A stretch of DNA of 64,000 bases from Micractinium sp. NFX-FRZ (Eukaryota > Chlorophyta > Trebouxiophyceae > Chlorellales > Chlorellaceae). Every line of letters begins with the position of its first letter. The first letter of the stretch is position 1. The position numbers were made by a program, and so were the translations under genes. Below the pieces are notes generated by a model, which worked only from the letters and a program-made list of their open reading frames with translations, was not told where the DNA came from and searched no databases. Where the stretch lies: assembly GCA_029339195.1 (NCBI GenBank), contig JAPTJF010000105.1:87737-151736 (forward strand), in the 5' to 3' direction. This document shows, piece by piece, positions 1,984-12,375 of this stretch.

Positions 1984-4900
1984 TCAGCACGCCGCCGCCT
2001 GGGCGGTTGCTCCCGGCTGAGCGGCAGCCGCTCGCTCCCGCTCCTGCTCCTGCTCCCGCTGCTGCATCATCTCTCGCTCCTGCTCCAAATCCTCTGCTGC
2101 CCTCTCTGCTGCCTGTAACTGCTTCCAGGCTGCCTGCTCCTCCGCCTGCAGAGGGGCTCAAACGGGGGGCGGGCCGGGGGGGACAGGTGGGGGGAGGAGG
2201 GCGGGAGAGGAAGGCTGGGCAACACAGCTCAGGCCTGCCATTGTGCCCGAGCAATCCTGCGAGCTCTGCTGGCGGATCCGGGCCTGGCATTTGAGTCTTG
2301 GTGCGCTGCAACACCTGCAACCGACCGCCAAGAGCGTGTGCAAGTAGGAAAGTGGCACGCCGTGGACACGCAGGACACCAGCCAGAGAATGCTGATGCTG
2401 GCCATCACCTGCAGGCCGCGCAGCGCAGCCAGCAGGCGCGGCTCCTCGCGCATGCGCCGCCGCCGGGCGGCCTCGTACCGGCGCCGCACCTCCTCCAGCT
2501 GCGAAGGGCACACACACACACATCACATCACATCGCATCACATCACACAGGCACGTGTGCCCCGGGGACACGGGTTCAGCTGGGAAGCTGCCTGGGAGCC
2601 AAAGACAGCCACACAGCGGGCGCAGCACACTAAGGAGCAGCTGCCGAGAAGGTGGTGTGAGACGTGAGCAGCTGCTGAGGAGGTGGTGGGCCACACCATG
2701 GGGCCTGAAAGCCCCCGCAGCTCCTGTCACAACAAGCAGGCTGCGGTCGCCGCATGGGCTGGCAGCAGCAGGGCTGGTTGCACAGCACAGCTTGCTTGGC
2801 AGGCCGGCTTCTGAGAGGTGGTGGGCTCAGCCGGGGCTCAACATGAGGTCAGCAAGTCTGCCCAGCCACCAGGCGCGGCTGCAGGCAGCGCGCCGCATCA
2901 GCGAGCAGCAGCCAGTGTGCCAGGCAGCCAGGCAGCCAGCCAGCCGTGTGGCCCCTACCTGCTGCCGCCCCTGCTCCTCGGCCGCACGGTTGGACAGCTC
3001 TCGGGCGGCTGCCAGCATGACTGGGTCGTTGGGGGCCAGAGGGGGCACCTGCGGGGCACAGCGGGGCACAGCACAGCGCAGCACAGGGGCAATGCGTGTG
3101 ATGATTGGGCCGGCCCAGGGCGCGGCTGAAGGCAGGCTGAGTTGTGGTGATGCGGCATGTTGGTGCACTGTGCCGCCATCTCTTGCCATTGTACCATGTA
3201 TCTGCTGCAGACCGAGCAACGTAGCACACGTTGTCTCGTAGTGCCCGCACCTGCCCGGTGTTCATGACCTGCGGGCCCAGCCCCAGCCCCGCCAGGTAGG
3301 CGCGGTTGGCGGCAATGCGCGCCTGCCGCGCCAGCTCCAGCGCCGTCAGCACCTGCGGGGCGGGCAGCCCATGGGCAGGCAGGAGCAGCGACATGATGGC
3401 ACGGCAAGCAGCAGGAGCACAGCGTGGTGCCGCAAGGCCGGCCCTTGGTCCCCTCTGGACAGCTGTCCAGCTACCGTGAGACATGCTCCCGCTCCCCCGC
3501 TTGCAAGTCACCCAAAGCAGGACACCGTCACCAAGCCACCCCCCCCCCGCCTCTCCTTCCCCATCCCTACCACCACCACTTCCCACCATCAACATCATCT
3601 GCCCTGCACCACCACAACCAACACGGTCATCACCCATCACCCCCTCCCCACCTGCCCTCCCCCCTCCTGCTCCTCCGAGTCCAGGCTGATGTTGCGGGGG
3701 GGCAGCCGCACCAGCTGCTGCAGCGTGGCCGAGCACACCACCTGCAGACACAGGAGGGCGGCAGAGGCGTGTAGGTTCACAGGAATCGGTGCTTCATGTC
3801 GGGGCAGGGACCGCAGGCAGGCAGGCATCCGTGTCCACCCAAAACCTGCCTCCGGCACCAGCCTCCCCCGTCCACCTCTGAAGGCGGGCGGGCAGGCACC
3901 AGGCAGGCGGGCACCAAGCAGGCAGGCAGGCAGGCACCAAGCAGGCAGGCAGGCGGGGCAAGGAAGCAGGCAGGCAGGCGCGGCCGAGCAGGGCCAGTAC
4001 AGTGTGCCCCAAGCACCTCAGAGGCAGGGGGCAGCGGGTTGGGGATCACTGGGGGCGGCGCCGGCGGAGGCAGCGGCGGCGGCTTGGCCCGCCGCTGCGG
4101 CTGCGGCTGTGCGGGCGCCTGTGGCCCAGCTGTTGCACCTGCTGCCTGCTCCTGCGGCTGCTGCTGCTGCTGCTGAGGGTGCTCATGCTGCCCCGCAGGT
4201 GCTGCTTGTGCTGCTGCCTGTGGCACTGGTGACGCTGCCTGAGCGGGCTCCGGTGCTGGTTCTGCTGAAGCTGCCGGCAGGAGCCACTCCAGCGGCGGGT
4301 GAGGCGGCAGAGGGGCACCCATCGGCAGCGCACGAGTCTGGGTTTGTGGGAGTGGCACCATGAAAGGTGCTGCCTGCATCATGCCTGCGCCAGCAGGGAC
4401 GAATGCAAGGGCGCCGCCTGCGTGCAGCAGCGGTAGCGTCGGCTGCTGGCCCGGCTGGCCCTGCTGCTGTTGGCGCAGCAGCAGCTGGTGCTGGTGCATC
4501 CACTGCATGTATGCTGCCAGCTGCTGCTGCTGCAGCTGCTGTGGCAGTGTTGCTGCCCCTGACGGGGCCAGCATGCCAGCTGGCAGTGCCCCACGCGCCT
4601 GCCCGGCCTGCGGCAGCTGCAGAAACAGCAGCGGCCGGGGTGCTGCCGCCGCCGGCAGCACGGGTGTCGCTGCAAGAAGCGGGGCGTGCCCTATGGGCTG
4701 GAAGGCGGGCGGCAGTGGGCGCATCAGCGTGGCTGGCCGGGGCACTGTCGATGCTGCTGCGGGAGCAGGTGCTGACATTTGTGCAGCCGGGATTGGCGCT
4801 CCGGTTGGGGCTGCTGCTGGTCTGGCCGGAGCTGCCGCTGCCACTGCTGGCACCGCTGCTGGAGCTGCTGCCATTGTGCTGCACCGAGGCGGCAGCACAG

Positions 4901-7900
4901 GGCCCAGTGCCTGCTGCGTCGGTGGCGGAGCCGTCAGGGGCGGTGGGCGGGGCGGGGACAGGGACGTGGGCGAAACACAGTGAGGGCTGCCGCAGCTGCC
5001 ACCACCACCGCTGCCGCCTCCACTGCCGCTGCCGCTGGGCCTGGGAGAGAACGGCTGCGGGCGGCGCTGCCCAGCACCGGCCAGGGGCGTCTGCACGGCA
5101 CCGCTGCCGGAAGCTTTGGCTGCTCCTGATGCTGCTGCAGCAAGCGTCACCGGGCACGGCATCAGCGCCGCCGCTGCTGCTGCTGCCGCCGAAGATGGCG
5201 CTGCTGCTGCTGGCGCTGGCGCCGGTGCCTTTGATGTTGGCGCCAGCGTCGACAGAGAAGGGGGAACCACTGGGGTTGTCTGCACCGGGATGCAAAGAGG
5301 CTGTGCTGCCGCCCCCTCCTCCTCACTGCCCGAGCCGGCGGCAAGGGGACAGCTGCTGCACCCTGTGGAATCTCCGCCTGCCGATGCTACAGCAGCAGCA
5401 GCAGCAGTAGCAGCAGGCGCCGCTGCCGTCTCCTGTGCCGCTTTCCCGTGCCGCCCTGGCTCCTCCTCTTGCATTGCCGCCTCCTCTTCGTGCTTTGCCG
5501 GCTCGCCCTCCCCCTCCTGCGCTAGCTCCCCACCCTCAGCCTCCATACCGCAGGAAAGGAACGGGGAGCCGCTGGTCGCTCGGCTGCGGTCCCCACTTCC
5601 TGCTCCCTCAGCCCCTCCTGAGGCCGCCGCCTTGGCTGCTGCCGCCTCTGCTGCCGCCGCCCCTGCTGCCAGCCTCTCCTCCATCCCCTCCTCCTCCTCC
5701 TCCCCCGCAGATCCCGCCCAGTCAATGCCGCCGGCTGCATAGTGCCCGCCCACCAGCTCGTTTTTGGAGAGAGGCGTCTGGCAGCTGGTCAGGGGTGGCC
5801 TGCGGGGCGGCGGTGCAGGGAGGAGGTTGGGGGGGGGGGGGTCGGGGGGCGGGGGAAAGTGAAGCCAGCACACCCCCTCAGCATGCCGCAATCCTAGAGG
5901 ATGTGAAGGGTTGCACTTCACCTCAGCATGCTGCAATCCCACTCCACATCGTCGCCTAGTGCCTGCGCTGCCTGGAAACCCACGATGCGCCACTTGTCGC
6001 ACTTGCTGCACTGCAGGGGCAGAGAGGTGGCCAACAGGGGAGGAGAGGAAGTTGCAGAGGGAGATCCGAGGGAGACGAACACTGCACCATTGGAGAGGGG
6101 GTCTGAGGAGAGGAACAACACTGCTCCAATGCTGCGCAGGTGTGGCCGAGGCACAGGGTGCGCTGCAGGTTAGTATGTGGGCAGGCAAGGCGGGTGAAGT
6201 TGCAGCCCCGGGGCGGAGCTTGCGCACTGCGAGCGCTAGGCGTGCTGTGGTCGTGGGCTGCCGCGCCGCAGCAGGCAGTGCATTTGAGCCATAAGAACTT
6301 CGCCACCACAGCAGCCACAGCACGCCCAGCATCCGACCCGCTGGGCCCCTCTTGCCCCTCAGCCCTAGTGCTCCCTATGCTGCCGCCCCAGGCAAAGGTC
6401 TCAACCTCTAAACCGTGCACGCAGTTCCCCCTTGTGGCACCACCCCAGCCAGCCCAAAGCCCCTACCCCCGCGCAGCACTTGCCTGCACCCAATGGTCCC
6501 TGTGGTGCTGCGCCGCATACCCCCGCAGCCGGTCCAGCAGCGAGTGGAATTCGTTGGTCTGCGGGTGGTGGGAGAGGAGACAGGTGTGTGGGCACATGCC
6601 CATGGTGCGCTGCTCCGCCAGCTGGGCAACCGCCCTGGCCTTACCTTCCCCACCCCCTTTCCTGCGCTGCCTTGTTTGGTCCAGCCCCCGTGCCTCCCCA
6701 GCAAGATGCACTGCATCTCTGCCACTCCTAATCCCCAGCAAAGCAGCAAAGTGCAAGGTCTGTGCTGTAGCTTGCCAACATCGACACTGAACTGTGAAAC
6801 CCCGCCACAGCCACAAGCCAGGGCACCTGCATCATCTGCCGGTCACCACGGGGGGCCTGGTACTTCACTGCCGGTCACCAACTGAGGCGCACTGCCCTTC
6901 CGCGACTCCCCAGCGATATGCAGTGCATCTCTGCTGCTCCCGGGGGCCCCACCTGCATCATCTGTCGGTCCACCGGAATGTTGGGCTCCCCCATCGACTC
7001 AAAGGCGTCGTAGAAGCGGGAGTAGAGGGGGCTGCGGGAGGGAGAGTGTGTATGGGGGGGCAGAGCGAGCTTCACTGTGATGTGCCCAGCCAGGGCTTTG
7101 TGGAAAGGCGGGGGCTGGCAGGGGCTGGTGCCAGGAGAGAGAGGCAAGAGCGGCAGGCAGCGGGGCAAGGCGGGGGGTGAGGAAGAGCCAGGAACGATGT
7201 GGGTCGCGCAAATGGCTGCGTTGCAGGGCTTGGTGAGGGCGGACGGGTGCAGGGGCAGCCTTTTAGGGGTGGCAGTGACGCCCAGTTTTTTGCAGCGCTC
7301 CACCAGCTACTCGGCCACCCACACAGCACACACACACACACAAACCGACACACCACCCTGTCCCTCGTTACCGTGCATTGCTCTTTGGTGCGATGCAGAA
7401 GACGGCAATGCCAAACTGCAGGGGGGGGGGGGGGGGGGGTGGGCAGGAGGGAGGGAGGGGGAGAGGGAGGGGCAATGGATGTGTTGGTGCTTGGATGCAG
7501 ATGAGGAAGGCAGCCGTACTCTCCCCGTGTCATTTTCGCTGCTTGTTTGTCCCCTTGCCACAGGGCACAGGCAGCAGGCAGGCGGTCGTGCTGGTCGTGC
7601 AGCCAGGCAGGCAGGCGTTCGTGCTTGTCGTGCTCCTCACTCCAATGGGCGTCTTGTCGTAGTCCTTGAACCGAGCCGACAGGCGGCGCAACAGCACGCG
7701 CGGGTAGGGGCGCAGGCGCTGCGGTGGCAGGGTGGGGAGGGTACGGCGGTGGCATCATATTGGAGGCATGGGTGGGGTGGACGGTGGGGGGCAAGGCATG
7801 GAATGCTCATCTGTGTGGGCACTGCCCTTGCACACATGTGCTGTACAGGCAGGCAGGCAGCATGCGTTCAACAAAGCATCCCACGTCTGCTGAGAGAGCG

Positions 7901-10900
7901 TGATGCAGCACACCGCACGAGCACCCAGCCAGCATGCGCCTCCCACCTGAAAGTATCCCGTATGTGTCACACGCGGCGCACCCAGCACACAAACACCCAG
8001 CCAGCATGCGCCTGCCACCTGAAAGTACGCCGTCTGTGTCATATGCGGCGCACCCAGCACACAACCAGACAGCCAGCTCCCACCTGAAAGTACCCCGTGT
8101 CTGTGGAGTTGCGGCACACCAGCACCACCCCCGGCACCCCGCCGTTCTCGACCTCGTCGATTGCACGGTTCACAAACCGCCACTGGACCTGCGGGCAGGC
8201 AGGGCAGGGCGGGCTTTTCAGTACCTTTCGGGCCCCAGGGCGGGGTGCGTCTTGGTGCATGGGCGTGGCACAAAGTGGCAGTGGCGGGGCGGCAGGCAGG
8301 CAGGCGGGCAGGCAGCCAGACCCCTTCCCTGAGTGCCCAACAACATCAGCGCTGCGCCGCGCCGTGGTGTGCTGCGTTGGTCTGAGGCAACAAAACACAG
8401 TGACAGAAGCGTGCCACTGACAACAGATGCATGCCGCCTGACCTGTGCGCTGTAGTCTGGGTTCAGCAGCACATACATCCCCTCCCAGCTGTTGCTCAGC
8501 TTCAGCCCGTTGTCCTGCACACACCACCGTGGTGCAGAGGGGCAGGAATGGCGTGGGGTGCCAGGATGGCCGACGATGGCAGAAGCGTGGTGGGTGAGGC
8601 CAGGGGTGCAAGCGGAGTGCAGGCGTCATCCGCCACAGGTGGAGCAGGTGTGAAGCTGGCAGCAGCGCCCAGGACAGCCCCCGTGTCACCGCCAGTCTGT
8701 CCCCACTTTCCCCCCCGCCAGCCTGCTCCCTTCCCACTCCCACCTGCTTGTCGTACAGCTTCTCAGCGGGTATGTTTGGTGCCAGCTTGGAGTTGGTGCA
8801 GGGGTCCAGCAGGCCTGCGATGAACGGGCGCTCCGCCGTGGGGCGGGGCAGCTCAAAGACGCGGAAGCACGCCGCCTCCTGCAAGGATGGGGAGGGTGGG
8901 TACAAAGTGGGATAAAGAGCAGTCAAGGGCGCTCCGGCGTGGGGCGGGGCGGCTCTTAGAGGCGGAAGCACGCCGCCTCTTGTGGGCATGGTGTCGGGAT
9001 GGGTGGGCGGGTGGGTGGGGTTACAAGCGCGGAAGCGCTTTGCTGCGAGTCACCTTGGAGGTGGGGCAGCTTAAGGACACGAGAGCACGCCGCCTCCCCA
9101 CCATACAGGTGGATGGTGAGATGGGTCAGGTGGTGCACAGGCGGCACAGGTGTATGTCGCAAGCGCCGGCAGCCCCTGGCTGCCCTCATGGGTTGGCACC
9201 GGTCTGCCAAGGCGGCTGCTGCGCTCAACTCACAATGATCCAATCTGGAGTCAGCCCCATCCTGGCCACCTCCTCGCCGGCGCCCTCTGCTCCCGCCTCG
9301 CCGCCCTCGCCGCCCTCGTGCGTCGCTCCCACCTGCAGGAGGAGGCGACAGGGGGGCGGGTGCAGCTGCGGGGTGGGCGGCAGCAGAGGACGGCGGGGAG
9401 GAGTGCGCCCGCCGATGGCTCAGCGCTTCTCTCACCCCTCACCACAGCGCAGGCGCTGTCTACCTTCCGCCCTCCCTTCCCCACTGCCCTGCATCTCTTT
9501 GCCCGGCCCACCTGCTGCTCCTCCCCGCAGCAGGGGCAGGCCCAGGCGCCCCCCGGCAGCTCCGCCGCCGACACCGCCGGGTGGTGCAGGCACAGCGGGT
9601 GGAAGAGGCGGTCGCAGCAGCAGCACTCCAGGTCAGCACCCAGCTCCCTGGGCCAGGGTGGCAGGCGGGGTGGCAGGGTGGCAGGGTGGTCGTGGTTGGC
9701 AGGGACAAGGGAGAGGGACCACCGCAGGTGGCGGGGTCTTGGCATATGGTGGGTCCCTTTCCCCTCCTCCGTCCTTCACATGCACAGGTTGCGTTGTGGA
9801 GCCGCCAGCTGTGGGGGGGTGCCGCCCCCATGCGCCTCAACCATCACCCGATATCATGCCCCGACCTGCACGCACACACACAGTCGCCCCTCACCTGCAC
9901 AGGCTGCATGCAGCAGGGCCTGCCCTGCTCCGCGGGTACAAGGGTAAGGCAACACACATCTACGCATATACCCACACCCAAAACCCTACACGGTCGCCCC
10001 CCTCACCTGCACAGGTAGCAGTTGTCTGGCGCCTGCCTGCTCTGCAGGTATGCCTCATACAGGTGCACCATGCGCTGCCGCTCCAGCTCCGGGTCTGCAT
10101 GGCGTGACTTTTGGTAACACACTGATCAGCGCTTTTGTTCACTAAAGCTGGTGCAGGTGCACCGTGCGCCGCCGCTCCAGCTCCAGGTCTGCACGTGAAG
10201 GCGGGACGGTTAATCCGGGATAGGGAGGAGGGTGTCTGCCGGGCTGCCGGCTGAACTTTGGCACTTCTCTGTACGGCGGCAACGGACGCGCGGGCCGGGC
10301 GCCGACATCCCCCCGCACCAGGCGCTGCCGCCCCACTGCCAGGTACTGTTCAGCGCACCCCCCTCGCACCCAACCCACCTGCGTGCGCCCCCTCTAGCTC
10401 ATTCAGCACCAGCTCTAGCAGCCGCAGCCTGGTCCAACGTAATCAGGAGGGGGTGAAGGCTGGTAGAGTGTGTGAGAGTGCGTGTATGCGGCCAGCCTGC
10501 CCGCCCCCATTGCTCGTCACCCACCTCCTTATCAACCGCCTCCTCCTGCTTCACCCCGTGGCGAGCGCTGCACGACAGGCAGCTGGCAGCGGTGCTCCCC
10601 CCTCCCAATGCGCCCTGCCCCTTGCTCCCATGCCGCCCTGCCCCTGCCCAGCCCACTTGTTCTGCGAGCGCCCCAGGGAGCGCAGCTGGCGGTGCAGCTC
10701 CGCCTCATCGGCCGGCGGCACCTCGCAGTCCTCGGGCCGCACCCACGCTGTGCTGTGCTCGCCATAGTACCGCACCAGCAGCTGGCCTGGCAGGATGACG
10801 AGAGGGGGGAGGGGGTGCACGGAAGGGGTGGGAAGGCGGTGGAAGGGTCTCACCCAGGCGCTGCTGGTGCTCGGAAAGCGGCACCAGCGGATGCCCTGGG

Positions 10901-12375
10901 AAGACGGAAAGAACACAGTGCGGGTGGTGCGGCGGCAGGCAGTGGGTGGTGCGCAGCCAGCACAACACAGAACCAATTGCTTCACCTGCAGCCCGCGTGC
11001 TGAGCCCGACAATGCGTCCCACCCCCCGCCCCGCCCCACCCACCCACCCGGCCGGTGCGACAGCATCAGCTGCCCCCAGTCCCGCCTCTTGCACAGCCCA
11101 AAGGCCCAGGCCACCGCGGGCCACAGGCCGCTGCCGGGCACCCGCACCCACAGGCGGGTGCCGGGGGGGAAGCGCTCGTGGGTGGGGGCCTCCTCCAACT
11201 GCTGAAGCCGCTCGCTCAGCTGGGGGCCATGCAGAGGCGTTTCATCGGCGGACCTGCCGGAGGGGGAGGGAGAGGGGGGATTGTGGGGAGCTAGGTGGTT
11301 GATGAGGAGCAAGGTGGCTTGTGCAGCCACGTAGTATGCGCAGCCAGGTGCCGGTTAGGGCAGGGGCAGGTGGCTGCAGCTCTCGCACAGTATCCAGGCT
11401 GCGGGCACGCCGCTAGCTTTGACAGGTAGCGCCCCCATGCACGCCGTGTCCCGCTGCCCTCCCCCATCCCCCATCCCTTCTTGTTGACGTGCTGCCCCGT
11501 CCCCGCCCCCAACCCTGCACCCCACCGCTTGGCCTTCTTAGGCGCCCGCTCCCGGTCCAGCGCCGGCCAGCGCTCAATCTCATAGTTCACGCCCAGCAGC
11601 CGGTCCTCCTCCTCCTCCGACAGCCTCTTCTTGGGCGCGCGCTGTGCGGCTGCAGGGGAGAAAGGCCGTGCGACAGAAATATGTTGTTCTTTTAGGTCGG
11701 TATGCATCCCATCGAAAAGTATCAGAAAGCAGCATCATATTTACATGTAGTGGAAGCCGGCCACCCGTGGCACCCCCACCCCACCACCACCACGCACCCT
11801 TCTTGGGCAGCACATACGGCAGCACCTGCTCCACCGGCAGGGCAACCTTGAGCTTCTTGGTGCGCCCTCCCTCCGTAAAGTCGGTCATCTACAAACAGAG
11901 AGAATCCAAGCGCGGAGATTTGGGAGGCACATGTAGAAGAGGATGGTGGGTGGGGTAGCGGTGCGGCAGCACATTCTTGGGCAGCGGGCGCGTGCATGCC
12001 TGCCCAGCGATAGCCTGCCCACCTGCACCACTGCAGTGGGGTAGCTGTGGCCGCCAGGCCTGCTCGAGGGCGGCTCCACCCGCAGGATCACGCCCTGCAT
12101 GGGCCAGAGGGAAACCGGGGCATGTGTGCTGCCATGGACGGGGGGCAGAGGGGGGGCGTAGCACAGGCGGCGCAAAGGTGGCCGCAGTGGCGGCAGGGGG
12201 CAGGGCGCAGCGGCGGCAGCACCGTTTCGGAGTTGATCGGCCGTGTTTCTGCGGTATTCTGCTGCAAATTTGAAGCCCGCCTCACGTGGTGGCGTCCCGG
12301 GCAGCGGTGGGCCGGCGGTAGCAGCTCCCCGCTCAGGAGCACCTCGCGGCGCACTAATGTGGGCTTCTTCGACAT
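1984..12375 (-). CDS. PWWP-PHD-Dam-like DNA adenine methyltransferase-CW chromatin protein
   Basis: Twenty-six exons keep phase and give 1,375 aa: 12375-12286, 12094-12023, 11888-11798, 11649-11526, 11253-11048, 10895-10854, 10786-10657, 10545-10525, 10428-10379, 10094-10007, 9647-9512, 9332-9234, 8878-8744, 8514-8443, 8188-8084, 7718-7641, 7415-7372, 7031-6953, 6558-6484, 6010-5922, 5784-4017, 3741-3652, 3352-3251, 3048-2959, 2498-2409, 2145-1984. Visible domains in order: PWWP (about aa 150-235, GLWPAVAW then LLVRYYGEHSTAWVRPEDC); PHD finger (about 298-345, CYLC, ECCCCD, FHPLC, WACPCC); a region like phage Dam-type N6-adenine methyltransferases (about 375-530, TPDWII, LDPCTNSK, SWEGMYVLLNPDYS, FCIAP); CW zinc finger (about 575-615, HWVQCSKCDKWRIV, EWDC); a 550-residue Ala/Pro/Gln-rich linker; and a charged, helical C-terminus. 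Inferred role: reading histone or DNA marks to direct or interpret adenine methylation. Exon 8 (21 bp) is the least certain. Catalytic activity is unproven because motif IV is NPDY. Confidence 0.82.
5868..5945. repeat. Copy of the CW exon donor edge
   Basis: The end of the CW-finger exon with its donor (CCTCAGCATGCTGCAATCC at about 5921) is repeated in the adjoining intron as CCCTCAGCATGCCGCAATCC near 5876. Confidence 0.6.
6823..6990. repeat. Copy of an exon-18 donor edge
   Basis: The 3' edge of the exon at 6953-7031 (CACCTGCATCATCTGTCGG on the + strand at about 6950) is repeated in the intron at about 6826 as CACCTGCATCATCTGCCGG. A short related block ending GCATCTCTGC occurs near 6712 and 6925. 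Confidence 0.6.
7421..7439. repeat. G homopolymer in intron
   Basis: An uninterrupted run of about 18 G lies in the intron just beyond the acceptor of the exon at 7372-7415, so on the coding strand it is a long C tract directly before the acceptor. Similar G runs occur near 5826 and 21878. Such runs are prone to length variation and sequencing error. Confidence 0.8.
7921..8110. repeat. Three-copy array carrying the exon-15 donor edge
   Basis: The donor edge of the exon at 8084-8188 (CACCTGAAAGTACCCCGTGT at 8081) recurs at 8016 and 7944, with flanking CGCACCCAGCACACAA also shared. Spacings are 65 and 72 bp. Each copy keeps the sequence that would encode TGYFQ followed by a GTGG donor. Confidence 0.85.
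8869..9100. repeat. Three-copy array carrying the exon-13 acceptor edge
   Basis: The start of the exon at 8744-8878 (coding EAACFRV.ELPRP) is echoed upstream in the intron. The core ACGCCGCCTC lies at 8869, 8970 and 9087, spacings 101 and 117 bp. The middle copy carries an in-frame stop (EAACFRL*) and the far copy reads EAACSRVLKLP, so both are decayed. Confidence 0.85.
10062..10194. repeat. Duplicate of the exon-10 start
   Basis: The exon that supplies the first PHD cysteines starts with a segment repeated 94 bp upstream in the intron (GGTGCACC at 10062 and 10156 on the + strand). The copy would read DLELERRRTVHLHQL then stop, against DPELERQRMVHLYEAYL in the true exon. Confidence 0.85.

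Follow-up and report, generated by a model that had tools for sequence, protein, structure and literature searches.

A gene on the minus strand of the window (the whole stretch of 64,000 nucleotides of Micractinium DNA that was analysed) encodes a protein, conserved in chlorophytes, in which a phage-related Dam-type core is combined with PWWP, PHD and CW domains, and which is read here, with a probability of about 0.52, as a histone-guided writer of 6mA on chromatin DNA. In broader terms a DNA amino-methyltransferase guided by histones is likely, its activity being one that we infer from sequence; since three domains of histone-reader type surround an adenine-methyltransferase core, methyl marks would likely be put where given histone marks sit. 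As a candidate coupler of histone marks to DNA adenine methylation, the role proposed in a sequence-only reading of the same DNA, the protein is supported.

The gene (1984..12375, minus strand) runs from ATG at 12375 to TGA at 1984, and the span, strand, start and stop given earlier were recovered on rebuilding it. The final model, based on phase and splice borders, contains 24 phase-consistent exons on the minus strand (12375-12286, 12094-12023, 11888-11798, 11649-11526, 11253-11048, 10786-10657, 10428-10379, 10094-10007; 9647-9512, 9332-9234, 8878-8744, 8514-8443, 8188-8084, 7718-7641, 7415-7372, 7031-6953; 6558-6484, 6010-5922, 5799-4017, 3741-3652, 3352-3251, 3048-2959, 2498-2409 and 2145-1984) and encodes a protein of ~1,359 aa with PWWP first, then PHD, the methyltransferase core and CW; all introns are GT-AG save one GC-AG (6483-6011). 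The first hand-built model comprised 25 exons in a single open frame (1,373 aa); its exon 6 (10895-10854) had no counterpart in the three proteins aligned (two from Micractinium, one from Chlorella) and was therefore removed. The 14 residues of this exon were included in the Pfam query and in the family-search queries, and in the family searches they lay outside the scored regions. Of the 26 exons and 1,375 aa counted earlier, the multi-exon, in-phase gene was retained and the count was corrected to 24 exons and 1,359 aa after alignment with relatives.

In both Micractinium and Chlorella the entire order, from exon 1 to beyond CW, is found within one predicted protein, at 70–75% identity (75% over residues 3-685 for Micractinium P0001). 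The model was built by hand from genomic sequence, and PHD, core and CW exons of different genes might in principle have been spliced together; with the full order present in these single proteins, separate genes joined in error were rejected as extremely improbable, and the placing of PWWP, PHD, methyltransferase-like and CW regions in one gene holds in other genomes also.

By its sequence the gene is a member of an old, conserved chlorophyte family, a point that, like the NPDY tetrad described below, was not raised in the sequence-only reading. All organism-named matches in the protein searches were chlorophytes, among the matches listed; the second search (best 120 of 174 matches) gave two named matches, both chlorophytes, and eight others inspected among the same 120 of 174 look like pieces of the same family. 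Micractinium conductrix P0001, named 'DNA N-6-adenine-methyltransferase (Dam)' in the database, was 86% identical over the queried region and is orthologue-like; functional work on it was not found in the literature. Comparison of the algal alignment with viral and genome contigs gave no relatives, a result that is no evidence of absence because the search words were family-specific and eight to ten residues long. No supporting paper was found for the Yamagishiella protein as a mating-locus member, and no published account of a chlorophyte PWWP-PHD-core-CW family was found in the open-licence literature, among the papers listed. A list of Dam-like enzymes of eukaryotes, with chlorophyte ones joined to chromatin domains, is said to be given by Iyer, Zhang and Aravind (BioEssays 2016), so that the architecture may in part be described already.

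The Dam-type amino-methyltransferase core (GLTPDWII to VDRQMMQ; 6953..9257, minus strand, 7 exons) was delimited by profile matches, alignments and structure comparison; LDPCTN (8792..8809, minus strand) was aligned with phage LDPCA in the motif I region. The core is firmly placed by sequence as a homologue of phage Dam-type DNA methyltransferases. PHROG 111 (DNA methyltransferase) was matched by the window core at 8.1e-12 and by 10/10 cores of the family; hhalign of the family core against phage enzymes gave 99.4% (not above 9.5% in 100 shuffles; 0.76% reversed), the phage proteins having been picked for matching the family core, a bias beyond the reach of the shuffles and one from which PHROG 111 is free. 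Together the two comparisons settle the homology, and the earlier assignment of a Dam-type core related to phage enzymes was confirmed by them. PF05869, the family named earlier, where a missing match was to count against the assignment, was matched below its cut-off by the isolated 201-aa core (0.0044; 17.1 vs 28.1 bits), was not matched in a scan of the 640-aa N-terminal piece of the window protein and was matched by 0/51 full-length relatives at E 1e-3; on rescanning of 7 relatives with E up to 0.1, three gave weak matches (0.0036-0.024) and four gave none. A match is thus present but sub-threshold, its absence is not clearly the case, and formal membership, below cut-off in window and relatives, was dropped and kept as homology only. 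A PF05869 search of the organism's own genome missed the gene, presumably because its exons are short; the MT-A70 profile matched one exon of that genome, which by motif we take to be METTL4-like.

The predicted core structure of a relative resembles N6-adenine methyltransferases and has a Rossmann-type fold. Its closest structural match is PCIF1, which methylates RNA caps, and this was counted against a DNA writer; Foldseek gave nothing under E 0.001 with the core model against PDB or with the first model against the viral structure library, and the core sequence gave two chance matches only against solved structures. An RNA methyltransferase that, like PCIF1 of animals, would modify nascent or capped RNA during transcription from promoters with H3K4me3 is improbable: the sequence homologues of the core are phage DNA methyltransferases, the window protein has no Pfam match to the PCIF1 family up to E 10, only the fold of the core being similar, and the RAMA and PWWP partners suggest DNA and nucleosomes as targets.

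Motif IV of amino-methyltransferases has the form (D/N)PPY, in which N, P and Y/F contact the target base; N6A and N4C enzymes share the fold and PP(Y/F), and N4C enzymes usually carry S as the first tetrad residue. The window tetrad, located by sequence and alignment, is NPDY (8452..8463, minus strand) and not the NPPY of 4/5 aligned phage enzymes. Over 113 full cores N was kept in 112, P in 112 and the aromatic residue in 113; the third residue was D, P, E, S or A, with D/E in 57/113, and together with NPDY in the window this means that catalysis could be altered or lost. The NPD/E cores might then be nearly or fully devoid of catalysis and act within a chromatin reader as a module that senses DNA or SAM, which we regard as a minority possibility, of roughly one chance in five; the base-contacting residues are fixed in 112–113 of 113 cores, the NPD/E cores are as conserved as the NPP cores (mean column entropy 0.88 vs 0.91; 63 vs 55 invariant columns), and NPPF of Auxenochlorella/Helicosporidium is nested within the acidic clade (SH-aLRT 93, 14-row group). 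The acidic motif IV offers a test of the need for the second proline in (D/N)PPY. With fold and PP(Y/F) shared by both enzyme types, a writer of N4-methylcytosine was also considered, and the bdelloid N4CMT, with its chromodomain, is a captured histone-guided writer of this kind that is reported active in E. coli (PMC8885841). The structural matches listed are largely adenine enzymes, of the five aligned phage relatives one carries the annotation of an N-6-adenine enzyme and four just that of a methyltransferase, and the first tetrad residue is N, not the usual S, so that a cytosine product is quite unlikely.

The domains around the core, all on the minus strand, begin with a beta-rich N-terminal domain of unassigned kind (exons 1-3, 11798..12375), whose model in the Micractinium homologue P0001 is of high confidence (block means of pLDDT 77-95 for residues 11-80) and which gave no Pfam match in the profile scan of the window protein. 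The PWWP domain (two exons, 10722..11162) matched PF00855 at 7.6e-4, under the Pfam cut-off (first 640 aa scanned). The PHD finger (two exons, 9527..10020) has the full C4HC3 set, all eight ligands being present in the window sequence, and matched PF00628 at E 0.027 (14.9 vs 24 bits cut-off); a PHD match was found in 19/51 relatives scanned (E 1e-3). The CW zinc finger (5770..6495; HWVQ, the GC-AG intron, then CSKCDKWR...WDC...SC) matched PF07496 above the cut-off (1.8e-9; 37.9 vs 27.5 bits; first 640 aa of the window protein) and was found in 45/51 relatives scanned; the Cys and Trp columns, with the zinc Cys and cage Trp, are conserved to at least 90% across the 51 relatives. Of the reader domains named earlier, CW was thus verified by its profile, and PWWP and PHD match but are sub-threshold in the window. 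A low-complexity Ala/Pro/Gln linker exon of species-dependent length (4017..5740) and a C-terminal helical region with conserved ARIAANRAYL and a long predicted helix (1984..3741) follow. A RAMA domain accompanies the core in some relatives.

As a histone-guided 6mA writer, the protein would dock onto the histone H3 tail by its PHD and CW fingers, CW domains usually binding H3K4 methylation, and PWWP would engage H3K36 methylation or the DNA of the nucleosome. With S-adenosylmethionine bound, the core would flip adenine out of DNA; the motif IV Asn side chain and Pro backbone would hold the adenine amino group, Tyr/Phe would stack on the base, and the methyl group would be passed from S-adenosylmethionine to the amino group. 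A wider proposal, put tentatively at about one chance in three, is that of a second, AMT1-independent pathway of DNA amino-methylation in chlorophytes, in which a Dam core of phage origin, acquired before the green algae radiated and set on a PWWP-PHD-CW platform (with RAMA in some relatives), may write or seed 6mA at H3K4me3 promoters, most named members having acidic NP[DE][YF].

Near-promoter 6mA of Chlamydomonas, offered earlier as support, exists as a mark; it is attributed to AMT1, an unrelated MT-A70 enzyme, at ApT sites, and is no evidence for the window protein (PMC12695648). According to the same source, nanopore maps that include chlorophytes place 6mA mainly at ApT, with appreciable levels at ApA also, and the robust methylation of adenine in eukaryotic DNA is ascribed to the single family MT-A70/AMT1 (PMC12695648). 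As far as this account goes, there is no orphan 6mA requiring the window enzyme, which could write 6mA on a minor scale, act on RNA or be a pseudo-enzyme; the credit given to AMT1 speaks in favour of the last of these (PMC12695648). If the protein is a histone-guided 6mA writer, H3-reading-type fingers fused to a phage-type adenine methyltransferase would form a direct wire between histone mark and 6mA, and a domesticated prokaryotic enzyme would have been under strong constraint throughout green-algal history; the targeting of adenine methylation to H3K4me3 chromatin is an open question that such a protein could address (PMC12695648).

Among known systems, the 2012 PWWP survey describes two Ostreococcus tauri PWWP-DNA-methyltransferase proteins, one closest to bacterial enzymes, and reports such proteins in Micromonas, Chlorella and ocean metagenomes and their absence from Chlamydomonas/Volvox (PMC3457860). 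Compared by description only, these are green-algal proteins that likewise join PWWP to a putative DNA methyltransferase; their PWWP is C-terminal, and adenine is unmentioned in the accessible part of the survey (PMC3457860). AMT1/MT-A70 (PF05063) has the same proposed product, 6mA, and is tied to H3K4me3 chromatin (PMC12695648), but is a different family, PF05063 giving no match in the window protein up to E 10. PCIF1/CAPAM, a cap-specific adenosine N6-methyltransferase, differs in its RNA-cap substrate, and the core has no meaningful sequence match to solved structures. Fungal MetB is a bacterial-type 6mA methyltransferase gained by one eukaryotic lineage and working alongside AMT1/Mta1; it belongs to the PF02384 family and carries a DNA target-recognition domain, and chromatin readers are not described for it in the accessible part of the paper (PMC11258239). 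The phage and bacterial Dam-type enzymes (PF05869, PHROG 111) have in common with the core the LDPC region, DG..W, NPxY and a TDTxYF stretch, whereas the window core falls under the PF05869 cut-off, carries NPDY and is embedded in a eukaryotic chromatin protein. In bdelloid N4CMT a prokaryotic amino-methyltransferase was likewise captured and joined to a histone-reading domain ('histone-read-DNA-write'); it is of another subtype, writes 4mC and has one chromodomain, whereas the chlorophyte family has three reader types (PMC8885841).

The whole gene was modelled by hand on the minus strand of the window from 12375 (ATG) to 1984 (TGA). A first model of 25 exons gave a single open frame of 1,373 aa; all exon borders were GT-AG, with a GC-AG intron (6483-6011) as sole exception. 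A 42-base exon (10895-10854) was rejected as lacking a counterpart in the aligned Micractinium and Chlorella proteins, and the final model of 24 exons and 1,359 aa was obtained. Alignment with the M. conductrix protein P0001 gave 75% identity over residues 3-685 and 63% over residues 1091-1332; for the queried region, identity with the Micractinium protein was 86%. By this identity and the tree of cores, the window belongs to an alga resembling Chlorella/Micractinium.

The first ca. 84 residues (window 12375-11798) match a beta-rich domain predicted with confidence in the model of the Micractinium homologue; no match to this domain was found in Pfam. The CW domain is split between HWVQ and CSKC by the intron 6483-6011, with GC instead of GT at its 5' border. 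A short C-terminal stretch, ARIAANRAYLAGLGL (window 3352-3251), is recognisable by eye even in the distant Chloropicon and Cymbomonas relatives. Direct-repeat search (D2-D4) revealed three decayed tandem copies of the 5' border of exon 8878-8744 (8826-9108), a second, decayed copy of the exon at 10094 (10060-10193) and, further on at 7911-8054, two echoes of the 3' border of exon 8188-8084, the link to this exon being drawn by eye; these intronic repeats of adjacent exon borders look like local exon-border duplication.

Two long-protein searches returned 121 (120 listed) and 79 proteins, the sets overlapping, and the core search 174, of which 120 were listed. Among the matches listed, those with an organism name were all chlorophytes; they were a minority, so carriers outside the chlorophytes may exist. 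The named taxa were Micractinium, Chlorella, Parachlorella, Auxenochlorella, Helicosporidium, Coccomyxa, Elliptochloris, Trebouxia, Myrmecia, Apatococcus, Bryopsis, Ostreobium, Tetradesmus, Volvox, Gonium, Pleodorina, Yamagishiella, Astrephomene, Edaphochlamys, Tetrabaena, Sanguina, Chloropicon, Pseudoscourfieldia and Cymbomonas. Botryococcus and Tetraselmis were read from gene ids; Chlamydomonas reinhardtii was not among the organism names of the matches listed. Chlorophyte placement was checked in the taxonomy for four of these.

Motif IV of the window protein is NPDY. After 144 proteins with partial core were left out of 256 retrieved, 112 and the window protein were counted (113 cores): N was first in 112/113, P second in 112/113 and Y/F fourth in 113/113; third residue: D 34, P 31, E 23, S 23, A 2. 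An organism was assigned to 2/28 NPPY rows (both Tetraselmis, from JGI gene ids) and to 0/23 NPSY rows; NPPF was found in Helicosporidium and Auxenochlorella. Mean column entropy of the core was similar, 0.88 (acidic set) vs 0.91 (proline set). The retained residues contact the base in DNA amino-methyltransferase structures; retention of precisely this set would be surprising in a dead enzyme, and a catalytically active core is therefore favoured.

With the third-residue column excluded, 76 non-redundant cores were placed on a quick tree, which was rooted on two NPPY rows; "NPPY first" is thus an assumption, consistent with the phage enzymes. The four motif IV states required 6 changes (shuffled mean 27.1). 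NPSY cores formed a single clade; acidic rows of Chloropicon, Pseudoscourfieldia, Cymbomonas and core chlorophytes grouped together, with the NPPF cores of Helicosporidium/Auxenochlorella nested within. Deep branching order is uncertain because 11 of 73 inner branches were starred and 30 were open.

With gene, domain order, homology, predicted fold and conservation established, the protein is proposed to be a histone-guided DNA adenine methyltransferase, for which we infer activity, base and histone specificity: CW and PHD would bind H3 while PWWP contacts the nucleosome, and adenine nearby would be methylated by the core. RNA may instead be the substrate, the RNA cap methyltransferase PCIF1 being the top structural match. 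An MT-A70 exon in the same assembly, L007 (G000:C177:37128-37247), carries LDPPWENKSVKRS and is presumably METTL4-like. Against the proposed DNA adenine methyltransferase role, nanopore maps of 18 unicellular eukaryotes including chlorophytes detected robust 6mA only in AMT1 species, chiefly at ApT and close to H3K4me3 nucleosomes (PMC12695648); the window protein is therefore not required to account for the bulk mark. It may write methyl marks as a minor, stage-specific or de novo enzyme, or have some other function.

Other architectures were observed among relatives. RAMA lies upstream of the core, above Pfam cut-off, in P0253 (143-237) and P0254 (147-241; representative of 173 member sequences), both with NPPY; this DNA-binding domain, present too in the bacterial DNA methyltransferase CcrM, is predicted as a 6mA sensor, yet MPND binding was 6mA-independent in one study (PMC9963953). 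In P0108 and P0256, assigned to Tetraselmis from their gene ids, the core has a long insertion with CxxC-rich stretches resembling CXXC fingers by eye; Pfam scan reported no zf-CXXC in P0256. P0242 (Chlorella vulgaris, 2168 aa) is labelled cytochrome P450 97B2, yet contains the core and CW, and may stem from two genes fused in the prediction.

A database already labels the Micractinium entry "DNA N-6-adenine-methyltransferase (Dam)", and chlorophyte Dam-like fusions were reportedly mentioned in a 2016 review. Among working systems, bdelloid N4CMT comes closest: a bacterial amino-methyltransferase was captured and carries a chromodomain, an arrangement termed "histone-read-DNA-write" (PMC8885841). 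Fungal MetB, a bacterial-type 6mA enzyme, can function alongside AMT1/Mta1 (PMC11258239), and in Ostreococcus PWWP is joined to putative DNA methyltransferases at the opposite end (2012 survey, PMC3457860). The green-algal family is set apart by enzyme class, three reader types, chlorophyte spread and acidic motif IV.
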